Part shown: piece by piece, positions 6,807 to 34,792 of the stretch
How positions within the stretch are numbered: the first letter of the stretch is position 1
Layout of the letters: each line of letters starts with the position of its first letter
NCBI GenBank assembly: GCA_943788095.1
Contig: CALSOZ010000006.1
Coordinates: 45,559 to 109,558, forward strand
Length of the DNA: 64,000 nucleotides
From: an uncultured Flavobacteriaceae bacterium
Lineage (GTDB): Bacteria > Bacteroidota > Bacteroidia > Flavobacteriales > Flavobacteriaceae
Direction: 5' to 3'
Notes under the pieces: model-generated
What the model was told of the DNA's origin: nothing
What the model saw: the letters and a program-made list of their open reading frames with translations, nothing else
The model's database searches: none
Position numbers and translations under genes: made by a program

Positions 6807-7127
6807 ATGCTATCAAACACTCCACCACCACCTTATTATGCGGTGATTTTTAGCTCTCTTAGAACTAAAAACAACGACAACTATGCTGAAACAAATGCCC
6901 TTATGAATCAGCTCGCACTTAAACAAGATGGTTTCCTGGGCATGGAGGAAGCCCGCTCAGAAATTGGTGTTGCTATTTCTTATTGGTCTGATTTAGAAGC
7001 CATCAAAAAATGGAAAGAAAATTTAGCGCATAAAGAGGCGCAAGAAAAAGGTCAACAACTCTGGTATAGCCAGTACAAAGTCCGTATTGCCAAAGTAGAA
7101 CGTGAATATGAGTTTTTGAAAAAATAA
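6807..7127 (+). CDS. Antibiotic biosynthesis monooxygenase (ABM)-like small protein
   Basis: A 106-residue ferredoxin-fold protein with the DUF/ABM pattern: YYAVIFSSLRT strand, central GFLGMEEARSEIGVAISYWSDLEAIKKWK and HKEAQEKGQQLWY. Such proteins act as small heme- or quinone-type monooxygenases or as ligand binders; the specific substrate cannot be told. It follows the LD-carboxypeptidase by 23 bp and precedes yraN by 12 bp, so the three probably form a transcription unit. Confidence 0.8.
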   Translation: MLSNTPPPPYYAVIFSSLRTKNNDNYAETNALMNQLALKQDGFLGMEEARSEIGVAISYWSDLEAIKKWKENLAHKEAQEKGQQLWYSQYKVRIAKVEREYEFLKK

Positions 7128-7139
7128 ACAAAATTTCCA

Positions 7140-7499
7140 ATGTCTGATATCTACAATCGTGGTGTTTTTGGAGAACGGTTGGCAGTCGATTATTTGATCT
7201 CGAAAGGGTATAAAATTTTGGTGCAGAATTATCGCTTTCAAAAAGCAGAAGTTGATATATTGGCACAAAAAGAGTCTTGTTTGGTGGCGATACAAGTGAA
7301 AACACGAAGCTCAACAGACTTTGGATCTCCTGAAGAGTTTTTAAAACCCGCCCAAATACAACGCATCATTAAGGCAGTCGATCATTTTGTAGTCTCAAAG
7401 GATTTAGACTTGGAAGTTCAGTTTGATATTATTGCGATTATACTTTCCTCTAAAACACCAAAAATAGAGCATATTGAAAATGCATTTTATCACTTTTGA
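7140..7499 (+). CDS. YraN family (UPF0102) endonuclease-like protein
   Basis: A 119-residue member of the UPF0102/YraN family, with a restriction-endonuclease-like fold. The core pattern is GERLAVDYLISKGYKIL, then AEVDILAQ and AIQVKTRSS, with a later FDIIAI strand. In the common D-ExK signature the E of ExK is Q here (IQVKTR), which may affect catalysis. The cellular role of the family is not firmly established. Its 3' end overlaps the convergent TlpA-like gene by 10 bp. Confidence 0.9.
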   Translation: MSDIYNRGVFGERLAVDYLISKGYKILVQNYRFQKAEVDILAQKESCLVAIQVKTRSSTDFGSPEEFLKPAQIQRIIKAVDHFVVSKDLDLEVQFDIIAIILSSKTPKIEHIENAFYHF

Positions 7500-8855: not shown

Positions 8856-11800
8856 TTATGCCAAAATAGGTCTCAAAGCTTCTAAACCTTGTTGAACGGA
8901 CCGAATATCTGAGAAGCTCATTAACAATCGCAGTCCCATGCGCATTCGTTTTTCTTTGACGGTACAGGATTGTGGGTGTGTTTGTACGTATTGTAATACT
9001 TTTGAAAAATGAATGCTTTGATAGAAACGACTCTCTTGATCACTCACAAAATAACCAACCATTTTTTGCTGTTTCAGTACTATTTTTTCAAATCCTAAGT
9101 TCGTTGCCAACCACTTAATTCGAACACTGTCTAAAAGATCCACAACTTGCGTTGGCACCGCTCCAAATCGATCAATTAAATCCCGTTCAAACACCTGCAA
9201 TTCATCTTCATTTTTCAAGGTGTTTAGTTGGGTATAAAGACTTAATCGCTCTGTGATATTATTGATGTAATCATCAGGAAATAAAAGTGAAAAATCCGTG
9301 TCAATCGTCACGTCTCTTACAAATTCTTTGGTATTTATATCTTCATTATAAAGGCTCTTAAACTCTGTTTCTTTGAGTTCTTCAATGGCTTCATTTAGAA
9401 TTTTTTGATAGGTTTCAAACCCAATATCATTGATGAATCCACTTTGTTCACCGCCTAATAAATCACCCGCACCTCGAATTTCTAAATCTTTCATAGCAAT
9501 ATTAAATCCACTGCCCAGCGCGGTGTATTGTTCTAGGGCCGAAATTCGTTTGCGTGCCTCATCGGTCATGGCATGGAAATCTGGGGTAATGAAATAGCAA
9601 AAAGCTTTCTTGTTACTTCGTCCTACACGGCCTCGCATTTGGTGCAAATCACTCAGCCCAAAGTTATTGGCATTATTGATAAAAATCGTGTTGGCATTTG
9701 GCACATCCAACCCACTTTCAACAATAGTCGTACTGACCAAAACATCAAATTCTCCACTCATAAAATCGAGCATCAATTGTTCAAGTTTTCGTCCTTCCAT
9801 TTGTCCATGACCCACCCGAATTTTTGCGTCTGGCACCAAGCGTTGCAACAGCCCTGCAACTTCTTTAATGTTTTCAATACGATTATGAATAAAATAGACT
9901 TGCCCAGCCCGTTGAATTTCATATTGAATGGCATCTCGAATGGTTTCTTCATTCAATCGGATCACGATACTTTCAATCGGGAAACGGTTGGGTGGTGGCG
10001 TTGTAATCACCGATAAATCACGAGCCGCCATTAAACTAAATTGAAGCGTTCTCGGGATGGGTGTTGCAGTGAGCGTGAGCACATCTACGTTGTCTTTGAG
10101 AGTTTTGAGTTTTTCTTTAACAGCAACTCCAAATTTTTGTTCTTCATCGACAATCAACAATCCTAAATCTTTAAAAACAACAGATTTACTAACGAGCTGA
10201 TGCGTTCCAATGATGATATCTAAACGTCCTGACTCCAAGCTCTCCAAAGTCTCTTTTCGTTGTTTGGTCGTTTTAAAACGGTTGATATGATCCACCGTAA
10301 CGGGGAAGTCTTTTAAACGCGCTTTAAAGGTTTTGGCATGCTGAAACGCCAAGATGGTGGTTGGGACTAAAACGGCGACCTGTTTGCCGTTATCCACCGC
10401 TTTAAAAGCGGCTCTTAGCGCCACTTCTGTTTTTCCAAATCCAACATCTCCACAAATCAAACGATCCATCGGGCGTTCACTTTCCATATCAGCTTTGATA
10501 TCGGCCGTCGCCGTCACTTGATCAGGAGTATCTTCAAACACAAACGAGGCTTCTAATTCGAGTTGCATAGACGTGTCTGGTTTGTATTGAAATCCCGTTT
10601 CAAGTTTCCGTTTTGCATAGAGTTTAATCAGATTAAACGCAATTTCTTTGACTCTTGTTTTGGTCTTTTGTTTTAAGACTTTCCAAGCTTTACTACCTAA
10701 CTTATAAACTTTTGGAGTTTTTCCATCTTTACCATTAAATTTAGTAATTTTATGAAGTGCATGAATGCTCAGATATAAAATATCGCGTTCGCCGTAAAAC
10801 AGCTTGATGGCTTCTTGTTTTTTACCCTCTACATCAATTTTTTGTAAGCCTCCAAACTTTCCAATACCGTGGTCAATGTGAGTGATAAAATCGCCTATTT
10901 CGAGTTTGGTTAATTCTTGAAGGGTGATGGATTGCTTTTTGGAAAACCCGTTTTTAAGGTGAAATTTATGATACCGCTCAAATATTTGGTGATCGGTATA
11001 ACACACAATTTTTTTATCATGATCGATAAACCCTTGGTATAAGGATAATACAATGGTTTGACATTGCACGGCTTCGTCGACCGTTTCAAAAATATCGTAA
11101 AATCGTTGCGCTTGTTGGGCATTCGAACAACATATATAATTTTTATAACCCGAATCGTGGTGTGAATTTAAGTCCTCAATAATTAGATTAAACTGCTTGT
11201 TAAATGAGGGTTGAGGACTCACCTCAACTTCCAGATGATTTTCAGCCTTGGAGACTAATACAGGACTACTCCCAAATTCAACGACTGAAAAATCTAAGAG
11301 TTGTGATTTAAAATGCTCTGGGGTGCAAAACAAATCTTCAGGTCGACTGTGATTTAAGGTTTTAGAAAGCTGCTCATAGGCTTCCTTTGCTTTTATTTGA
11401 AGTGCTTCCGTTTTCGACAACAGTCCTTTAATATCTTTGGCAAAAATCACTGTGTTCGAGGAACTATACTCTAAAAAACTTTGACGCGTTTCGTTGCGTA
11501 ACTTATGCTCAATATTGGGGATGATTTGAAGCTTTTTAAGAGGTTTTATAGATAACTGCGATTCAATATCAAAGGTGCGAATGCTATCGACTTCATCCCC
11601 AAAAAACTCAATTCTATAAGGTTCGTCGTGCGAAAATGAAAACACATCTACGATCCCACCACGAACCGAAAATTCTCCAGGTTCAGTCACAAAATCGACT
11701 CGTTTAAAATGGTATTCAAAAAGAACTTCATTGAAAAAATCAAGGACAAGTGTTTCCCCAACAGCCACTCTAAAGGTGGATTTTTCGAGTTCTTTTCTAG

Positions 11801-24900: not shown

Positions 24901-26389
24901 AGAGTAAAATATCATGTGCATTGGCATCTTCCTGATCGATATAATAGGTATTGTTGGTCGCAACTAATTTCACTTGATGCTTTTGAGCAAGCGTGATCAG
25001 CACCGGATTCACTCGATCTTCATCTTCTTGGTGGTGACGCATGATCTCCACATACAAATCGGCGCCAAAAATGGTTTTCCACCACAAGAGGGCTTCTTCG
25101 GCTTGGCGCTCGCCAACGTTTAATATTTTGGAAGGCACTTCGCCGTATAAATTTCCTGTCAGAACGATTAAATCCTCTTTATAGGTTTCGACGATCTTGC
25201 GGTCTATTCGTGGCAAATAATAAAAGCCATCGGTATAGGCCTTGGATGACATTTTTACTAAATTGTGATAGCCTTTTTTGGTTTTGGCTAAGAAAACGAC
25301 CTGATAGCCATTGTCTTTTTGGGACTTATTGGTATGGTCTTCGCAGACGAAAAACTCACAACCGACGATCCCTTTGATTTCCTGAGCATCCGCAGGTTCA
25401 TTGGCGGCTTCTGCGTCTTTATTTTTTTGACGAATGGCTCTGTTATAATTGCCATTTCTTTGACAAAATGAAAAGCACCCATCATATTTCCATGATCGGT
25501 AAGCGCTACGGCTGGCATCTGATTATCGGAGGCAGCTGCTACTAAATTTTTAATACTTATGGTCGATTGTAGTACCGAAAACTGCGAATGGTTATGCAAA
25601 TGCACGACTTTCGCATCATTGAGAATGGCCGGAACTTCTGTGGTAATTTGCTGTGGCGTGACGCTTCTTTTTCTTGTTGAATGCGTCGCCGCTATTTTAG
25701 CCGATTCTTTTTTAAGGTTGACATGCTTTAAACCTATGGGAGTGATTTCGTCAGGATGTTCAGACTGAAATTGTTGGTAATAGTCGTTGGAAGCTTGCAA
25801 TTGATCTATGGTGAATTCCTGACGACGGATTAATTCCAAAAAACAACGGGTGGTGGCTTCCACATCGGCGGTGGCATTGTGCGCTTCTCCAAAGGGTTTA
25901 TGAAATAAAAACTGGTGTAATTCCGTCAGTGTGGGCAGCTTAAATTTACCGCCACGTCCCCCTGGAATTTGACACATGGACGCTGTTTTTTCGGTACAGG
26001 TATCTAAAACAGGCAATTGATTTAAGGCCGTTTGAACTTGCAGGCGGTGAAACTCACAGCCCATAATATTTAAATCGAAGCCCACATTTTGCCCAACCAC
26101 AAAAGTGGTTTTGGAAAGGGCGACATTAAACAATTCTAATACTTCATGCAATAGGCAATCCTTGTTCGGTGGCCAACTCGGTAGAGATGCCATGAATTTT
26201 TTCGGCATCATACGGAATATTGAAGCCGTCTGGACGAATTAGATAATCTTGATGCTCCACACAACGCCCCATATCGTCGTGCAATTGCCAGGCAATTTGA
26301 ATACAGCGAGGCCAGTTGTCCACGTCTGTAACGGGGGCATTCCAACGCTTTGGTAAGCCGGTAGTTTCGGTATCAAAAATTAAATACAT
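21991..26389 (-). pseudogene. dnaE: DNA polymerase III alpha subunit with N-terminal 3'-5' exonuclease, at least nine frame changes
   Basis: Ten consecutive ORF fragments on the minus strand make up one replicative polymerase of about 1460 residues. Order: DEDDh exonuclease domain (FDTETTGLP; VGQNVGFDLNIM; HNATADVEATTRCF), PHP domain (VHLHNHSQFSVLQS, LTDHGNMMGA), polymerase core ([15 protein letters not shown] and catalytic [15 protein letters not shown]), GVFQYES, finger region, helix-hairpin-helix, and OB domain near the C-terminus. Frames change near 26160, 25440, 24860, 24790, 24620, 24090, 23940, 23740, 23270, 22820 and 22570 or close to these. All functional motifs survive, so consensus errors are the likely cause. 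The N-terminal exonuclease would give built-in proofreading. trxA follows downstream. Confidence 0.93.
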
Positions 26390-26808: not shown

Positions 26809-27969
26809 ATGAAAACTATACTAATAAGGCCGCATAATTTGAGAAATGAATCCATTATTATGGTTCAGTTTCCTTTTGACAAGGAGCTTACTTGGCTGTG
26901 TCAAAACAATTGAAAATACTCGCTGGAGTCAGACCTTAAGCTCATGGTATGTGAAAAAGAAAGATTTTGATTTACATCGTGTTTTTAATGTCTTTAAAAG
27001 CATCGCCTATGTGGATTACTCGGCGCTTAAAACTACAAAAGACCGCACTCTGCCCAAAGAACGTATTAAACGAAAAGTCATACGCTGAGACGCCGATCCC
27101 CAACAGCCTATATTGAGCATTTAAGACTGAAGCGGTATAGCGAAAACACGATTAAGTCCTATGTCTCCGAATTTAAAAAATTTAGTTCCTATTATATTCC
27201 GAACGTAATTTAGAAACAATCTTGACTAAAGATGATATCGAGGGTTACCTACTAGTATCTTATCCAAAAGCAGAAAGTATCTGCTTCATCACAGAACCAA
27301 GCCATTAATGCTATTAAATTTTATTACGAAAAAGTATTGCAGCAGCCCAAAATGGTTTTTAACATTGAACGCCCTAGGAAAGCGAAGTTACTTCCTAAAG
27401 TACTTTCAAAGGAAGAAGTGTTTGCTATTATATCCACAATTAAAAACCTAAAACACCGCTGTATTATTTCACTAATTTATTCTGCTGGATTGAGAAGAAG
27501 TGAATTACTGAATTTAAAAATCATTGATCTCGACTCTTCTAGAAACCTGATTTTGATTCGAGGTGGTAAAGGAAATAAAGACCGTCAAAGCATTATTTCT
27601 AAGGAATTATTTAAACATCTAAGAGAATACTACAAAAAATACAAGCCAAAAACTTGGCTTTTTGAAGGAGCAAATGGAGGACAATATAGTCCGTCAAGTA
27701 TAGCGAAAGTACTATCGAAAGCGAGCAAAATAGCAGGAATACGAAGAAAGATTACTCCTCATATGCTTCGACACAGTTTTGCAACTCACCTTTTAGAGCA
27801 AGGGGTGAGTTTCAGACATATTCAAACACTTTTAGGGCATGGTAGCTCCAAAACAACGGAGATATACACACAGGTGTCTACGCAAGAAATTGGGAACATA
27901 AAGAATCCTTTAGATGGGTTTTATAAATATTCGAGTGACACAAAATATAAAGGAAATAAACACCACTAG
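26809..27969 (+). pseudogene. Tyrosine recombinase (integron-type position), four frame changes
   Basis: The tracked ORFs 26846-27088 and 27337-27969 are parts of one gene. ATG at 26809 begins MKTILIRPHNLRNESIIMVQFPFD; shifts near 26897, 27085, 27196 and 27253 link it to WSQTLSSWYVKKKDFDL, the core-binding domain YIEHLRLKRYSENTIKSY and the catalytic domain. Catalytic residues are complete: R in GLRRSEL, K in GKGNKDR, HxxR in HMLRH, H in LLGHGS and Y in EIYTQV. Reconstructed length is about 387 residues. There is an extra N-terminal domain of about 80 residues, and between KDR and HMLRH I see no room for the insertion that marks IntI, though the end NPLD recalls IntI. It lies directly before an array of attC-like cassettes and is its likely recombinase. 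Confidence 0.85.
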
Positions 27970-27995
27970 TGGTTTATATACAGTAGTTGTGTGTA
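27963..27995. other. attI-like junction: palindrome at the integrase stop and start of cassette 1
   Basis: CCACTAGTGG (27963-27972), a 10-bp palindrome, spans the integrase stop codon. Cassette 1 begins at 27986 with GTTGTGTGTA, the exact reverse complement of TACACACAAC at 28417-28426. By analogy with integrons the recombination point would be G^TT at 27986/27987. The attI label is inferred. Confidence 0.5.
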
Positions 27996-28045
27996 ATTTA
28001 ACGCAACCAAATCGGAATTTGAACATCTAATAAAAAAATAGAATT

Positions 28046-28411
28046 ATGAAAAATTTAAAAATAATCGCATTACTCTTTTTAGTCGGAATTTACTTTTCTT
28101 GTAATAATGACGACGACAATATCACTCAAACTTTAAGTGGAATTTATTCGGAAACTTCACCTGTAAGTGGACGTTCTCAATTGAATTTTATAAACGGAAA
28201 TACAGTTGTTAAATCAGAACCTGACAACTCAACCGAAGACGAATTTACTTATGAGTTAATCGGAAACGTGATTAGATTAACACCGACTTTGGACAATTCT
28301 ACAACTCAAGAATTTGAAATTGAAATTATGACTAACTCGAAATTTGAGATTGAAAACCTTTATCCAAGTGTAGGAATAAATCCAACTACTTATATGACTT
28401 TTGAAAAATAA
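28046..28411 (+). CDS. Small lipoprotein, cassette 1
   Basis: A 121-residue lipoprotein: MKNLKIIALLFLVGIYFSCNNDDD has a signal peptide, a lipobox ending in Cys, and an Asn/Asp-rich tether typical of surface-exposed lipoproteins of Flavobacteriia. The rest (GIYSETSPVSGRSQLNFINGN, EFTYELIGNVIRLTP) looks like a small lipocalin-type beta-barrel with a C-terminal YMTFEK. I do not recognise a specific family. It is the only gene of the first cassette, 60 bp from the cassette boundary, with its repeat 5 bp after the stop, as in integron cassettes. Confidence 0.75.
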   Translation: MKNLKIIALLFLVGIYFSCNNDDDNITQTLSGIYSETSPVSGRSQLNFINGNTVVKSEPDNSTEDEFTYELIGNVIRLTPTLDNSTTQEFEIEIMTNSKFEIENLYPSVGINPTTYMTFEK

Positions 28412-28416
28412 AAAAC

Positions 28417-28545
28417 TACACACAACACCGTGTAAAATTAATTGCTGGTTTTAGCCAATTTACGAAAGTCCTCTCGGACTTTCTATCTGTGATTTATTTG
28501 CTAACTTTATTGCTTAAAACACGCAACTAATCTTACACAAACACG
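28417..28545 (+). repeat. attC-like site 1
   Basis: A 129-nt site ending cassette 1. The 5' arm CACAAC-ACC-GTGTAA pairs with the 3' arm TTACAC-AAACAC-GTTGTG (6 bp each, separated by unpaired spacers), the R''-L''...L'-R' layout of integron attC sites. Inside is a perfect 8-bp hairpin GAAAGTCC-TCTC-GGACTTTC (28464-28483). The TT after G28545 belongs to the next segment. Confidence 0.75.
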
Positions 28546-28906
28546 TTGTGAATAATAGTTGTTTTTTGTATCTTGTAGACACCTCAAAATCAACACCTAT
28601 GCATCATATCGATCAAGAAATTGATAGATTCCAACTCTCCATGATGGATTTAGAATCTATGGTAGATCAAAACTCTTACGCACGTTTGGTAGATCTGTTT
28701 GTCCAAAGTCTTCCTCTTGAAAAATCAAGAACCTTATTGAATCTATCCGCACAAATCAAGGCATTTGTAGTCGATTTAAAGGACTATTTTGAAAGAGAAA
28801 TTATACAATTACAGTACTTTTTTGAAAGAAAACAACGGCTTAAAAGTGCTGTAAATCGTTATAATATATTAATATTTAACTGAAATGGGGCTTATTGCGA
28901 AGTCTC
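28546..28906 (+). mobile_element. MITE-like element copy A1, left end deleted
   Basis: About 361 bp, some 97% identical by eye to copy A2 (30170-30568) but lacking the first 38 bp including the left inverted repeat. The right end GCGAAGTCTC is followed by CCGTTGTAACC, the start of cassette 2. Its left junction falls exactly at the G^TT point of attC-like site 1. Confidence 0.7.
28599..28883 (+). CDS. Element-borne 94-residue protein of unknown function, copy 1
   Basis: Starts at the ATG at 28599 (MHHIDQEIDRFQLSM); the tracked GTG start at 28548 is at the element edge and unlikely. The protein is helical and charged (MVDQNSYARLVDLFVQSLPLEKS, ... DYFEREIIQLQYFFERKQRL). The N-terminal part faintly recalls the opening of some Bacteroidota transposases (NSYARLVDLFVQSL), so the ORF may be a remnant of an internally deleted insertion sequence. 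Preserved almost unchanged in copy 2, which could reflect recent duplication rather than function. Confidence 0.45.
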   Translation: MHHIDQEIDRFQLSMMDLESMVDQNSYARLVDLFVQSLPLEKSRTLLNLSAQIKAFVVDLKDYFEREIIQLQYFFERKQRLKSAVNRYNILIFN

Positions 28907-28918
28907 CCGTTGTAACCA
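28907..28918 (+). other. Start of cassette 2
   Basis: CCGT followed by TGTAACCA directly after element A1. By comparison with cassette 3 (CCGTTCTACGCA) this is a cassette left edge, GTTGTAACCA. The matching 5' arm TGGTTACAAC of its own repeat is not found, in line with the deletion at the end of this cassette. Confidence 0.45.
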
Positions 28919-28980
28919 ATTTTGAACAAAAATTACGTTAAACCAAAAACAGCGGTGCCAATGAATAAAACAAAAGAAAA

Positions 28981-29472
28981 ATGAAAAACTTAACAAACAA
29001 AAAGAATAGTTTGATAAAAACTATATCTTATTTATTCCTTTTTACAATACTAATTTTTAGCAGTTGTAATAACGATGACTCACCACCTAACTGTGGCTGT
29101 GAATCAGCTACTTTGGACACAGTACCTAGTGAAAACTTCCCTGAAGTTCCAATTGAAGAACAAAAAAGTGGTTTAATATTTTATAAACTTCCTGAAAATA
29201 TAGACCCTATTTTTGATGATGAACATAATGGACAATATAACAATCGTTTTTGGATTTTTCAAGGAACGGAAGGTTGTTACAATTGCCGAAGACATTTCAT
29301 CATTTGTAATGAAAACTTATTAGGTACAGAATATGATTATTTAAAAAACACAAATGACTCAATACCAATAAGTTTTACTGGAGAACTTAAATTTTTATGC
29401 ATAGAACCTTTTGTTACACCAGCTGATTATTTTTATTCAGAAATAAAGCTTACTTCGATTGAGCAACAATAA
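28981..29472 (+). CDS. Lipoprotein with Cys-rich motif, cassette 2
   Basis: A 163-residue lipoprotein: long signal peptide ending in the lipobox LIFSSC, then NNDDSPPNCGCESATL. Further cysteines occur in GCYNCRRHFIICNE and LKFLCIEP, possibly forming disulfides or binding metal. No family recognised. It is followed 17 bp later by a protease-prodomain gene, suggesting one cassette with two genes, the small lipoprotein perhaps an inhibitor or partner of the peptidase; this is a guess from position only. Confidence 0.7.
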   Translation: MKNLTNKKNSLIKTISYLFLFTILIFSSCNNDDSPPNCGCESATLDTVPSENFPEVPIEEQKSGLIFYKLPENIDPIFDDEHNGQYNNRFWIFQGTEGCYNCRRHFIICNENLLGTEYDYLKNTNDSIPISFTGELKFLCIEPFVTPADYFYSEIKLTSIEQQ

Positions 29473-29489
29473 TTTTAAAAAATTTAACA

Positions 29490-30140
29490 ATCAAAAAATT
29501 ACTTACTATAATCTTGTGCTTGTTCTTCTTTTCAATTTATGCACAAAACTACTATTATAATGGTAGTGAAAAAGTAGAAATCTATGAATCTAAAAATTCC
29601 TTTATTTCCTTTGACAACCCTGCTCAAACATTCCTAAAAGAGTTTAAAGATGTTAAAACATTTTCATCAAAAGGGTTTACAATCCTCGAAGACGGAAAAA
29701 CTGATATTTCAGTAAGAAAGTTAAGAGATAAAAAGTTAAATCAAACCATCCCTGCATTGCTATTGGACTCCAATAGTAATTTTAAAATGTTTTCCACAAA
29801 AACCATTCGTATAAAATTAAAGACTAATCATAATAACGATAATGTTTCAAAACTTTTAAAAAATGATGATATTATAGAAACTAAAGAAAAATATGGAATT
29901 TTGCGAGTAAAAGTAAAGAATATTCATAAAGTTTTGGAAATTGCTAATAAAATTTACGAGTCAGGTATCGCAGAATTTTCAATTCCAGACTTTTATATTC
30001 CAATGGAGTTGAACCAAATAGATGACCCTTTGTTTCCTTTTCAGTTTCAAATGCATAATACTGGACAGGTAATAGATGGAGTAGCAGGAAATTCCTACGG
30101 AATTTCCAACTTGGTGTGTACTTGCGAAGTTAAGTACTAA
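29490..30140 (+). pseudogene. Truncated subtilisin-like (S8) peptidase, prodomain only
   Basis: The frame encodes a signal peptide (KKLLTIILCLFFFSIYAQ) and a fervidolysin-type inhibitor prodomain ending in the diagnostic NQIDDPLFPFQFQMHNTGQ that precedes the catalytic domain of secreted S8 peptidases. The catalytic Asp, His and Ser regions are missing: after NSYGIS the sequence runs into LVCTCEVKY and stops, at DNA resembling the middle of the attC-like repeat. The natural start would be ATC at 29490 (expected ATG); the track uses an internal TTG at 29514. So the gene is 3' truncated by a deletion fusing it to repeat site 2. Confidence 0.8.
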
Positions 30141-30169
30141 ACCACGCAACTACTCATACACGAGACCGT
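30120..30169 (+). repeat. attC-like site 2, 3' half only
   Basis: ACGCAACTACTCATACACGAGACCGT matches ACGCAACTAATCTTACACAAACACGT of site 1, including the L' box TACAC and the spacer before G^TT. The 5' arm is missing, deleted together with the S8 catalytic domain. R' is split by element A2, so that TTCTACGC now lies at 30572. Confidence 0.65.
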
Positions 30170-30568
30170 CAGACTGCGCAAAAACCCATGATTTAACAAT
30201 TCTTTTTTTGTGAATAATAGTTGTTTTTTGTATCTTGTAGACACCTCAAAATCAACACCTATGCATCCTATCGATCAAGAAATTGATAGATTCCAACTCT
30301 CCATGATGGATTTAGAATCTATGGTAGATCAAAACTCTTATGCACGTTTGGTAGATCTGTTTGTCCAAAGTCTTCCTCTTGAAAAATCAAGAACCTTATT
30401 GAATCTATCGGCACAAATCAAGGCATTTGTAGTCGATTTAAAGGACTATTTTGAAAGAGAAATTATACAATTACAGTACTTTTTTGAAAGAAAACAACGG
30501 CTTAGAAGTACTGTAAATCGTTATAATATATTAATCTTTAACTGAAATGGGGGGTATTGCGAAGTCTC
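30170..30568 (+). mobile_element. MITE-like element copy A2, complete
   Basis: 399 bp with imperfect terminal inverted repeats: left CAGACTGCGCAAAAACCC, right end reverse-complemented GAGACTTCGCAATACCCC (about 14 of 18 match). It is flanked by a direct CCGT duplication (30166-30169 and 30569-30572). The insertion point is inside the R' box of an attC-like site. It carries one 94-residue ORF and no recognisable full transposase, so it probably moves in trans. Confidence 0.75.
30261..30545 (+). CDS. Element-borne 94-residue protein of unknown function, copy 2
   Basis: Nearly identical to the protein at 28599-28883 (differences include MHPIDQ for MHHIDQ and RLRSTVNRY for RLKSAVNRY). A TATCTTGT box lies about 30 bp before the ATG within the element and may be its promoter. 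Both copies keep the frame open although indels break many other genes of this window. Function unknown; could be a remnant of a transposase or an accessory factor. Confidence 0.45.
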   Translation: MHPIDQEIDRFQLSMMDLESMVDQNSYARLVDLFVQSLPLEKSRTLLNLSAQIKAFVVDLKDYFEREIIQLQYFFERKQRLRSTVNRYNILIFN

Positions 30569-30570
30569 CC

Positions 30571-30580
30571 GTTCTACGCA
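30571..30580 (+). other. Start of cassette 3
   Basis: GTTCTACGCA is the exact reverse complement of TGCGTAGAAC at 31191-31200, the 5' arm of the repeat after parE. This is the R'/R'' relation expected for the two ends of a single integron-type cassette. Confidence 0.7.
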
Positions 30581-30593
30581 ATTTGAGAAAAAT

Positions 30594-30624
30594 TTTGCAT
30601 TTATACCAATTTTTGGTATATTTG
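30594..30624 (+). promoter_or_regulatory. parDE promoter with overlapping palindromic operator
   Basis: TTTG (30594-30597), 19-nt spacer, TATATTTG (30617-30624): an excellent Bacteroidota promoter. The inverted repeat TATACCAA-TTT-TTGGTATA (30602-30620) covers the spacer and the first bases of the -7 box, a natural autorepression site for the ParD antitoxin. Confidence 0.75.
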
Positions 30625-30642
30625 AATTAAATTAGTATCAAA

Positions 30643-30894
30643 ATGAACAAAAACACATCAATATCACTCGGGAATCATTTTGACCAATTCGTACAAAGTA
30701 GCATTAGCGATGGACGATTTAAAAATGTTAGTGAAGTTATTCGTGCAGGATTAAGACTTTTAGAAGAAGAAGAAAGTAAAGTGATTGCTTTGAAAAATGC
30801 AATTCAAGAAGGAATTGACAGCGGAATTGCTCACGATTTTGATCCAAAAAAACATCTTGAATCACTAAAAGTGAAAAAACACTCGAATGCCTAA
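30643..30894 (+). CDS. parD: ParD-type antitoxin, cassette 3
   Basis: An 83-residue type II antitoxin of the ParD/CopG ribbon-helix-helix kind: NTSISLGNHFDQFVQSSISDGRFKNVSEVIRAGLRLLEEEE is the DNA-binding dimer unit, and the C-terminal half (GIDSGIAHDFDPKKHLESL) is the toxin-neutralising tail. It should bind its own promoter palindrome at 30602-30620. It overlaps parE by 8 bp, ensuring coupled translation. Toxin-antitoxin cassettes are common stabilisers of integron arrays. Confidence 0.93.
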   Translation: MNKNTSISLGNHFDQFVQSSISDGRFKNVSEVIRAGLRLLEEEESKVIALKNAIQEGIDSGIAHDFDPKKHLESLKVKKHSNA

Positions 30895-31186
30895 ATATAA
30901 ATTAACCAACAAAGCTGTTGTTGATTTATCAAAGATTTGGGAATACACATTTGAGGTTTGGTCGGAAAAACAAGCCGATAAATATTACGATGGACTAATT
31001 TCTAATTGTGAAGAAATTGCTGAAAATCCAGATTTAGGAAAAAATTATCAAGGAATATCAAAGAAACTCTTGGGAATAAAATCAAATCGACATATAATAT
31101 TCTACAGAACTTTAAACAAAGAATATGTTGAGATAACGAGAATATTACACGAAAGAATGGATTTAAAAAAAAGAATTTCAGAATAA
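30887..31186 (+). CDS. parE: ParE-type toxin, cassette 3
   Basis: A 99-residue RelE/ParE-superfamily toxin: KYKLTNKAVVDLSKIWEYTFEVWSEKQADKYY, then NPDLGKNYQGISKKLLGIKSNRHIIFYR and ITRILHERMDLKKR match the family at every conserved position, including the C-terminal I-x-R-I-L-H-x-R-M-D. Classical ParE poisons DNA gyrase; some relatives cut mRNA, and sequence alone does not decide. Intact and immediately after parD. The attC-like repeat begins 4 bp after the stop. Confidence 0.93.
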   Translation: MPKYKLTNKAVVDLSKIWEYTFEVWSEKQADKYYDGLISNCEEIAENPDLGKNYQGISKKLLGIKSNRHIIFYRTLNKEYVEITRILHERMDLKKRISE

Positions 31187-31190
31187 AAAC

Positions 31191-31221
31191 TGCGTAGAAC
31201 ACCGTTATCCATTGCGCAACC
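31191..31221 (+). repeat. attC-like site 3, 5' half only
   Basis: TGCGTAGAACACCGTTATCC: R'' arm GCGTAGAAC, spacer ACC, then GTTATCC in the L'' place, matching the AAC-ACC-G core of site 1. A pairing L' arm and R' box do not follow, so the array is truncated here. Confidence 0.6.
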
Positions 31222-31596
31222 CTTCTAAAAAAAATAAACCACCTCTTTTAAAAAGAACTGAGCAAAAAAAAACTCTTTTCTTGAAAATTTTAGACACTAT
31301 ATGCCAGGCATAATTTTATAATTAAGCGTTTTTGGTTCATTATTTTTAAACGCCCCCTGTAACGCGCAAAATTGAAGCTTCCAAGACCTCAGTCCTATCG
31401 CGTGAAACCTGCTCCTGCAAATTTTGAAGTCGTCGAGGCTTCAATTTCATGACTTAGAGGAACATTATACACCCCATTTATAGGGCAAAAAAACGGTCCT
31501 ATAAAATTTATTTACAAAAGCGTGTAGAATCGAAAAATATCCTATATTTGCGCTCTCATTAATAACCGAGGTCGAGAACCTCACAAATTAATTATT
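31222..31596. other. Intergenic region before rpsP
   Basis: About 375 bp with no gene. It contains the 13-nt inverted repeat TATGCCAGGCATA (31301-31313), a hairpin TTTATAGG/CCTATAAA (31477-31505) and the rpsP -7 box. It marks the chromosome side of the cassette island. Confidence 0.55.
31543..31550 (+). promoter_or_regulatory. -7 box of the rpsP operon
   Basis: TATATTTG, an exact TAnnTTTG match, 46 bp before the rpsP ATG. A hairpin with an 8-bp stem (31477-31505) lies just upstream. No clear -33 box. Confidence 0.55.
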
Positions 31597-33611: not shown

Positions 33612-34792
33612 ATGAAAGCAGATTTATTTGAAGCACCCGATTATTACAATTTAGATGATTTATTATCTGAAGAACACAAACTCGTCAGAAGTGCCGCACG
33701 GGATTGGGTTAAAAGAGATGTGTCTCCAATTATAGAAGACTATGCACAAAGGGCCGAATTTCCAACTCAAATTATTGGAGGTTTAGCAGAAATTGGAGCC
33801 TTTGGCCCGTACATCCCCGTCGAATATGGTGGCGCAGGATTGGATCAAATATCCTATGGATTAATTATGCAAGAAATTGAACGTGGCGATTCGGGCGTTC
33901 GAAGTACGGCTTCGGTTCAATCGTCCTTAGTGATGTATCCCATTTGGAAGTATGGAAATGAAGCACAACGCCAAAAATATTTACCAAAACTCGCCAGCGG
34001 CGAATGGATTGGTTGTTTTGGACTGACTGAACCCGACCATGGGAGTAACCCAGGTGGTATGACCACAAATTTTAAGGATATGGGCGACCATTATCTATTA
34101 AATGGTGCTAAAATGTGGATCTCAAATTCCCCAATTGCACAACGTGGCCGTCGTGTGGGCAAAAAATGAAGAAGGTCGAATTCACGGACTCCTAGTAGAA
34201 CGTGGCATGGAAGGATTTACAACCCCTGAAACACACAACAAATGGTCGTTAAGAGCAAGCTCTACAGGCGAACTTATTTTTGATAATGTCAAAATTCCAA
34301 AAGAAAATTTACTCCCTAATAAATCTGGACTCGGCGCACCATTAGGCTGCTTAGATTCTGCACGTTACGGAATCGCTTGGGGTGCCATTGGTGCCGCGAT
34401 GGACTGTTATGACACCGCCTCTAAGATATAGTAAAGAACGGATTCAGTTTGGCAAACCCATCGGTCAATTTCAATTACAACAAAAGAAACTTTCAGAAAT
34501 GATTACCGAAATCACCAAAGCCCAATTATTAACATGGCGCTTAGGAGTTTTAAGAAATGAGGATCGCGCAACGACCGCACAAATATCAATGGCCAAACGA
34601 AATAATGTCGATATGGCGATAAAAATTGCACGTGAAGCCCGTCAGATGTTAGGCGGCATGGGTATTAGCGGAGAATACAGCATTATGCGTCATTCTATGA
34701 ATTTAGAAAGCGTGATTACATACGAAGGCACACACGATATCCATTTATTAATTACCGGATTTGACATCACTGGTTTAAACGCATTTAAGTAA
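33612..34792 (+). pseudogene. Acyl-CoA dehydrogenase, glutaryl-CoA dehydrogenase-like, two frame changes
   Basis: Three ORFs (33612-34169, 34102-34431, 34382-34792) form one FAD enzyme of about 390 residues. It has the signatures GCFGLTEPDHGSNPGGMTT, WISNSPIA...VVWAKNEEG, RASSTGELIFDNVKIP, ERIQFGKPIGQFQ, REARQMLGGMGISGEYS and ESVITYEGTHDIH with the catalytic Glu. The pattern fits glutaryl-CoA dehydrogenase, which oxidises and decarboxylates glutaryl-CoA in lysine and tryptophan breakdown. The extra bases near 34143 and 34427 look like single-base insertions. Stand-alone gene; both shifts are probably sequence errors. Confidence 0.9.

Follow-up and report, generated by a model that had tools for sequence, protein, structure and literature searches.

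A parDE segment of a Flavobacteriaceae genome as a probable gene cassette of an integron-like system

Described systems and the locus

A survey of complete genomes found integrons nearly absent from Bacteroidetes (only In0, and later one complete integron in Salinibacter ruber) and termed their absence from large clades intriguing (PMC9024848). Otherwise, integrons in Bacteroidota are mentioned merely as rare or as detected (PMC9024848, PMC8618304, PMC9668308). The present analysis concerns a segment with a parDE toxin-antitoxin pair, called cassette 3, in 64,000 nucleotides of DNA (the window; assembly GCA_943788095.1, contig CALSOZ010000006.1, positions 45,559 to 109,558) from an uncultured Flavobacteriaceae bacterium. 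It is probable that Bacteroidota have an integron-like system and that this segment is one of its gene cassettes, the two ends forming the cores R' and R'' of the attC-like site and the adjacent recombinase being the most likely catalyst; we put the probability of this reading at roughly 0.87. No prior description of such a system was found in the literature; preprints and most subscription journals were outside the scope of that search, so an earlier description is possible.

The likenesses to integrons comprise cassettes arranged head to tail with one gene direction, complementarity of R' and R'', a GTT boundary, an array that starts beside the integrase, an imperfect hairpin biased to the bottom strand with an asymmetric unpaired spacer between the R and L stems, and a toxin-antitoxin cassette. 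The recombinase, in contrast, lies outside IntI, lacks the IntI insertion and carries an extra N-terminal domain; the integrase gene is codirectional with the array and has its 3' end at the attI-like site; and the core consists of GTT, seven private nucleotides, a wobble position and three pairs, instead of GTTRRRY. The system appears to work like an integron, yet by the features tested it is no member of the canonical IntI integrons. A second comparison is offered by the Xer enzymes, which act on one dif site. XerA-type structures are the closest solved relatives of the catalytic domain here, whereas the enzymes described below head cassette arrays and bear an N-terminal domain of ~100 residues.

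Cassette 3 and its matching ends

30571-30584, plus strand: R' end of cassette 3, GTTCTACGCA A TTT (sequence, 14-nt rule)
30643-30894, plus strand: parD antitoxin, 83 amino acids (PF03693, 5e-26; TIGR02606, 1.5e-26)
30887-31186, plus strand: parE toxin, 99 amino acids (PF05016, 7e-16)
31187-31200, plus strand: R'' end of cassette 3, AAA C TGCGTAGAAC (sequence, 14-nt rule)
31201-31206, plus strand: ACCGTT, the sole recognisable remainder of the left half of the site behind cassette 3

A preliminary description of this DNA reported GTTCTACGCA (30571-30580) and TGCGTAGAAC (31191-31200) as perfect reverse complements; their positions, around a complete parD-parE pair, were confirmed. It also held that the idea would fall if these 10-mers were frequent elsewhere in the genome. 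The 1.74 Mb genome assembly (~75% complete) contains one forward and one reverse occurrence, which are exactly the pair of cassette 3. The complementarity extends over 14 nt, with 10 Watson-Crick pairs followed by A/C at position 11 and three further pairs.

Shuffling, proposed as a check against chance, gave a divided answer. The 10-nt match alone is weak evidence because comparable pairs are not rare in the AT-rich window, where 14 GTT-initiated complementary pairs at a spacing of 200-2500 bp were counted; 200 dinucleotide shuffles averaged 6.5 and reached at most 15. The 14-nt rule with A/C at position 11 was decisive, being satisfied at exactly two places in the window, cassette 1 (27986-28426) and cassette 3, against 0.005 per shuffle; the rule had first been read in related arrays, reached via the window's integrase and site, and was later counted in the window. 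A reading of the ends as a transcription terminator, or as an inverted repeat that arose by chance, draws on the frequency of such 10-nt pairs and is the least credible of the readings considered, since it is opposed by the 14-nt count, by the 610 bp that separate the arms and by the same rule in the arrays of relatives, among which 75 of 88 intervals in integrase-chosen loci refute it.

A search for the parDE cassette at other loci with the same ends had also been suggested, and it succeeded for the ends but not for the gene pair. GTTCTACGCA with the cassette-start pattern recurs in L178, L137, L140, L145 and L147, and in L178 the cassette that it delimits has a complete site and is unrelated in sequence. 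A second copy of the window's parDE cassette was not met: plasmids contained none, and no systematic search was made beyond plasmids. Downstream of cassette 3 there is no L' or R', no match to the site model and no hairpin (31191-31340 folds like shuffled sequence, z 0.1 to 0.5), and its site is therefore truncated. On the evidence of sequence, the parDE segment is a genuine gene cassette, degraded in part, and the integron-like system to which it belongs has a recombinase other than IntI.

Private ends in related arrays

Related loci were collected by scanning bacterial and archaeal genomes with the window recombinase, and many of them belong to Bacteroidota. In Flavobacteriaceae, cassettes with private ends lie head to tail behind the integrase, a result obtained without any site model. 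The same arrangement, with different site sequences, was seen in Prolixibacteraceae (L011), in Cytophagales (L018) and in Carboxylicivirga (L028), and a Flammeovirgaceae locus (L033) has private-ended cassettes upstream of the recombinase match. With complementarity of at least 8 nt from GTT/AAC as the criterion, private ends were found in 256 of the 272 intervals between consecutive sites; 1000 partner shuffles averaged 10.3 and never exceeded 22, and shuffling confined to one locus averaged 34 and reached at most 53. These intervals bear out the view that private complementary ends on two cassettes reflect neither chance nor a plain dispersed repeat. The complementarity ceases at position 15, and position 11 is A/C in 219 of the 256 private-ended intervals, which gives a T.G wobble on the bottom strand. 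In loci selected later by the N-terminal domain of the integrase, a few of which overlap the earlier ones, 75 of 88 intervals have private ends.

The word "private", used in the preliminary description, holds within a cassette but not across cassettes, which share a vocabulary: 253 cassettes of unrelated content (L131-L180) use 94 different 9-mer ends, where independent positions would give 194. As a positive control, canonical IntI arrays from other classes of Bacteroidota (L196, L200) have private ends of 9-13 nt, and such ends are therefore a general hallmark of integron cassettes.

Among 201 cassettes with an open reading frame (ORF) of at least 40 amino acids, the longest ORF is on the cassette strand in 194 and on the opposite strand in 7, and the start codon follows R' by a median of 25 nt. 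All sites of one locus are on the same strand, and some arrays are dense, with 23-25 sites in 18-20 kb. The core GTTRRRY is matched by only 12 of 201 R' cores, with GTT/AAC retained. Longer sites (~190 nt) recur with near-identical cassettes in one array, that of L133:

L133, 886-1079, 1890-2083, 7168-7360, 8171-8364, 13470-13663 and 17472-17666: long-class sites

The attC-like site

27986-28426, plus strand: cassette 1, with a lipoprotein-like ORF (28046-28411) and private ends GTTGTGTGTAATTT / AAACTACACACAAC
28417-28552, minus strand: intact attC-like site of cassette 1, ~135 nt, long bottom-strand hairpin (model R1, 132 bits at 28421-28550, minus strand)

The bottom strand of the cassette 1 site folds at -23.4 kcal/mol (z -5.1). 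An alignment of 22 sites has the common plan R''-ACC-GTGTAT...TTGC // GCAA...ATACAC-spacer-GTT, and its consensus fold is -22.2 kcal/mol for the bottom strand versus -5.9 for the top strand. Pairing holds in 97.5% of the cells of 150 sites; double changes number 318, compared with 69 after shuffling. These numbers should be read with the fact that the rows had been fitted to the model, which favours the structure. Sliding the partner columns by one to three lowers pairing to 34-51%. Among non-Watson-Crick cells read on the bottom strand, 826 are G.T and 60 A.C. By fold, covariation and G.T bias, the attC-like sites are imperfect palindromes with a bottom-strand hairpin. A scan of the window with Rfam gave no match to an attC-type family. 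Integrons recombine the bottom strand as single-stranded DNA (PMC8946536), a trait that the system here would share.

In the mechanism proposed for the system, the first 14 nt of a cassette would join the end of the ~130-nt site in an excised circle and there pair with R''. The most likely catalyst is the adjacent tyrosine recombinase, which would act on the site's folded bottom strand; cleavage would take place at or within GTT, and cassettes would be inserted at an attI-like site just 3' of the integrase stop codon.

The integrase and its position at the arrays

26861-27088, plus strand: remnant of the extra N-terminal domain of the integrase, ~100 amino acids (domain profile versus G000:C6:72419-72646, 8.5e-14; one stop inside)
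27088-27969, plus strand: tyrosine recombinase (integrase), interrupted frame, open from 27337 (PF00589, 4e-40; NF040815, 190 bits; TIGR02249, 150 bits with a cut-off of 265)
27972-27988, plus strand: attI-like site, GTTTATATACAGTA-GTT, directly 3' of the integrase stop (position, and similar sequence behind related integrases)

The catalytic domain of these integrases is nearest to XerA/XerC-type enzymes, with the XerA-type structures 4a8e and 5hxy as its closest solved relatives; the L014 protein reaches 225 bits with NF040815 (cut-off 220). IntI integrases have a specific additional domain around patch III (PMC9668308), for which the integrases here show no equivalent: the ~50-residue segment between residues 198 and 249 of IntI4 has no counterpart in them. 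In a tree of 80 proteins, a single clade with full support holds 20 of 20 IntI, and the Bacteroidota enzymes linked to arrays lie elsewhere, except for the long-branched L028, which is nearer to IntI and of unsure placement. This tree bears on the possibility of an ordinary integron whose integrase is a canonical IntI. The locus follows the logic of such an integron in its private core ends, its attC-like hairpins and the attI-like site beside the integrase, and canonical IntI occurs in other classes of the phylum (above the TIGR02249 cut-off in 46 of 148 genomes of a phylum-wide sample). The separate clade, TIGR02249 scores of 150-200 under a cut-off of 265, the absent IntI4 segment and the rarity of GTTRRRY nevertheless make such an integron quite improbable; among the rows listed for the same family, order or class, only G335 exceeds the canonical cut-off.

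The ~100-residue N-terminal domain is conserved throughout the integrase family. It has no match in Pfam, and a profile search against solved structures returned nothing significant. Foldseek with a model of the domain gave weak hits to XPB (2fwr, E 0.25, probability 0.82) and to the HARP domain of SMARCAL1 (4o66, E 1.0, probability 0.25). The modelled fold is perhaps akin to the DNA-recognition domains of HARP/XPB, and its role is put forward here as a hypothesis.

The integrase gene is codirectional with the array, and its 3' end lies at the attI-like site. Related integrases are followed by comparable attI-like motifs (TATATCCAATT-GTT, ATATAACTA-GTT). In 20 loci taken by their N-terminal domain, the integrase stop was located in 13, and the first private-ended cassette begins 42-131 nt after it in 10 of these 13; L162, also among the 13, ends at a contig edge. 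In the 7 loci without a located stop, the first such cassette is at a comparable position in 6. The arrays appear to begin at an attI-like site beside the integrase.

Cassette mobility

Near-identical cassettes were found in different neighbourhoods, within and between genomes. In L131, a 562-bp cassette unit is present twice in one array with 100% identity (6833-7394 and 8873-9434, array orientation), and L144 and L163, which by their assigned labels (G161, G062) belong to different genera, share a 428-bp unit at 98.6% identity. Most often the alignment of such cassettes stops at the final T of GTT or a single base beyond it; starts one base before GTT are frequent, and other alignments extend into the conserved part of the site. 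Site-specific movement would predict ends of this kind.

Distribution and points against the system

In Flavobacteriaceae, attC-like sites were detected in 254 of 301 genomes (E <= 0.001), the counts per genome being lower bounds (at least the number given). With the same model, which was trained on Flavobacteriaceae, 30 of the 148 genomes of the phylum-wide sample have sites.

Several findings weigh against an integron-like system driven by the neighbouring integrase. Cassette 3 has no complete site. The window integrase falls in a subclade with L003 and L004, whose available sequence ends near the integrase, so that downstream arrays are not visible. The first private-ended cassette is found only further downstream of the integrase stop in L163 and L174, and likewise only further on in L171, where the stop was not located. 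Moreover, the N-terminal domain was matched in 92 of 201 Flavobacteriaceae genomes versus the 254 of 301 with sites. Because sites are present in more genomes than this integrase, many arrays would act in trans, be relics, or have integrases missed by the search.

The same imbalance favours the idea that real cassettes are moved in trans by another recombinase, e.g., host XerC/XerD, the adjacent integrase being a mere neighbour; one cassette of the window's genome, situated between housekeeping genes with no integrase beside it, points the same way. Yet arrays repeatedly begin right behind this integrase, and integrase-less site clusters (CALINs) are common in canonical integrons too (PMC9024848), which leaves the idea improbable. 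The cassette in question (L143, 8305-8752; C1:150304-150751) has the ends of cassette 1 (GTTGTGTGTA) and an attI-like motif upstream (TATATACACTA-GTT); it is flanked by acyltransferase-like and trpS-like genes without an integrase nearby, and it resembles an off-site insertion.

Standard integron searches are expected to miss the system because its recombinase differs from the known integron integrase. A wider proposal, to which we would give even odds, is that Bacteroidota have their own integron system on a non-IntI recombinase, of separate origin or from a very early split; hairpins would be recognised by its N-terminal domain, which may be HARP/XPB-like, in place of the IntI insertion, and the system would be the main cassette capture of Flavobacteriaceae, overlooked as tools seek IntI and its cores. 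If the system is as described, most Flavobacteriaceae carry cassette arrays, some of them dense, which amount to an uncounted adaptive gene pool. It would also represent a second enzyme solution for recombining folded DNA, by which IntI-specific features could be compared with generic ones, and would supply a practical model for finding such arrays.

IS1182-type remnants at the site/cassette boundary

28546-28908, plus strand: copy A of the remnant, left end missing, stopping precisely at the cassette 2 GTT (identity to copy B, 98-99%; terminal repeat AGACTTCGCAA)
28909-30140, plus strand: cassette 2, start GTTGTAACCAATT, with a lipoprotein-like ORF (28981-29472) and a second ORF (29514-30140)
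30054-30167, minus strand: degraded attC-like site of cassette 2, recognisable in its right half only, 30138-30167 (model R1, 39.3 bits at 30054-30173)
30168-30570, plus strand: copy B of the remnant, left end GTCAGACTGCGCAAAA, right end TTGCGAAGTCTCCC (reversed: GGGAGACTTCGCAATA)

The window reads, in order, interrupted integrase, cassette 1, complete site, repeat, cassette 2, degraded site, repeat and cassette 3, so that each of the two copies of a ~360-400 bp repeat is located between a site and a cassette. The ORF of the repeat, which we take to be of the IS1182 type, matches the N-terminus of ~500-residue proteins in other Flavobacteriaceae, one of which is a DDE/DUF772 transposase. The repeat ahead of cassettes 2 and 3 was also considered as a cassette in itself, and this was ruled out by its transposase-like ORF and by its ends, which are like those of complete elements. 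Copy B interrupts a junction that has the L' side of the site on one flank and the GTT of cassette 3 on the other, at the boundary between C and GTT; with its flanks rejoined (catacacgagacc to GTTCTACGCAATTTG), a normal site/cassette junction is restored.

Since this remnant directly adjoins the left end of cassette 3, the matching ends might be terminal inverted repeats or target duplications of a parDE-carrying transposable element. The remnant has different ends (AGACTKCGCAA) and stops exactly at GTT, however, and hundreds of cassettes without a remnant have the same kind of private ends, which vary between cassettes as transposon ends do not. The arrays refute such an origin, and it is very improbable.

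In other genomes, elements with the same left end are placed directly after an ACC like that preceding GTT, and in L207, L210 and L214 the sequence preceding the element resembles a site's right half. These positions suggest a family of IS1182-type transposons that targets the sites. The IS1111-attC group consists of insertion sequence (IS) elements that insert in attC sites. The elements here share with that group a place at the site/cassette boundary and differ from it in their transposase, which is of the DUF772/DDE type.

Remaining features of the window

The window's copy of the integron-like system is damaged, with an integrase that reads as broken, an IS1182-type remnant exactly at the 5' boundary of cassette 3 and the greater part of the attC behind parDE missing. 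The integrase gene contains one TGA and two TAG. The R'' end of cassette 2 was not found, and the right half of its site aligns with the site of cassette 1. Two more genes, one for an acyl-CoA dehydrogenase (33612-34792) and one that is DNA polymerase III-like (25288-26389), are divided between overlapping frames, which suggests indel errors in an incomplete assembly. Because these other conserved genes of the window are frame-split as well, the break in the integrase may be a sequencing error and not decay; such error cannot account for the site halves that cassettes 2 and 3 lack. Beyond cassette 3 lies an ordinary rpsP gene with an S16-Flavobacteria ribosomal protein leader at 31558-31592 (Rfam RF03138).
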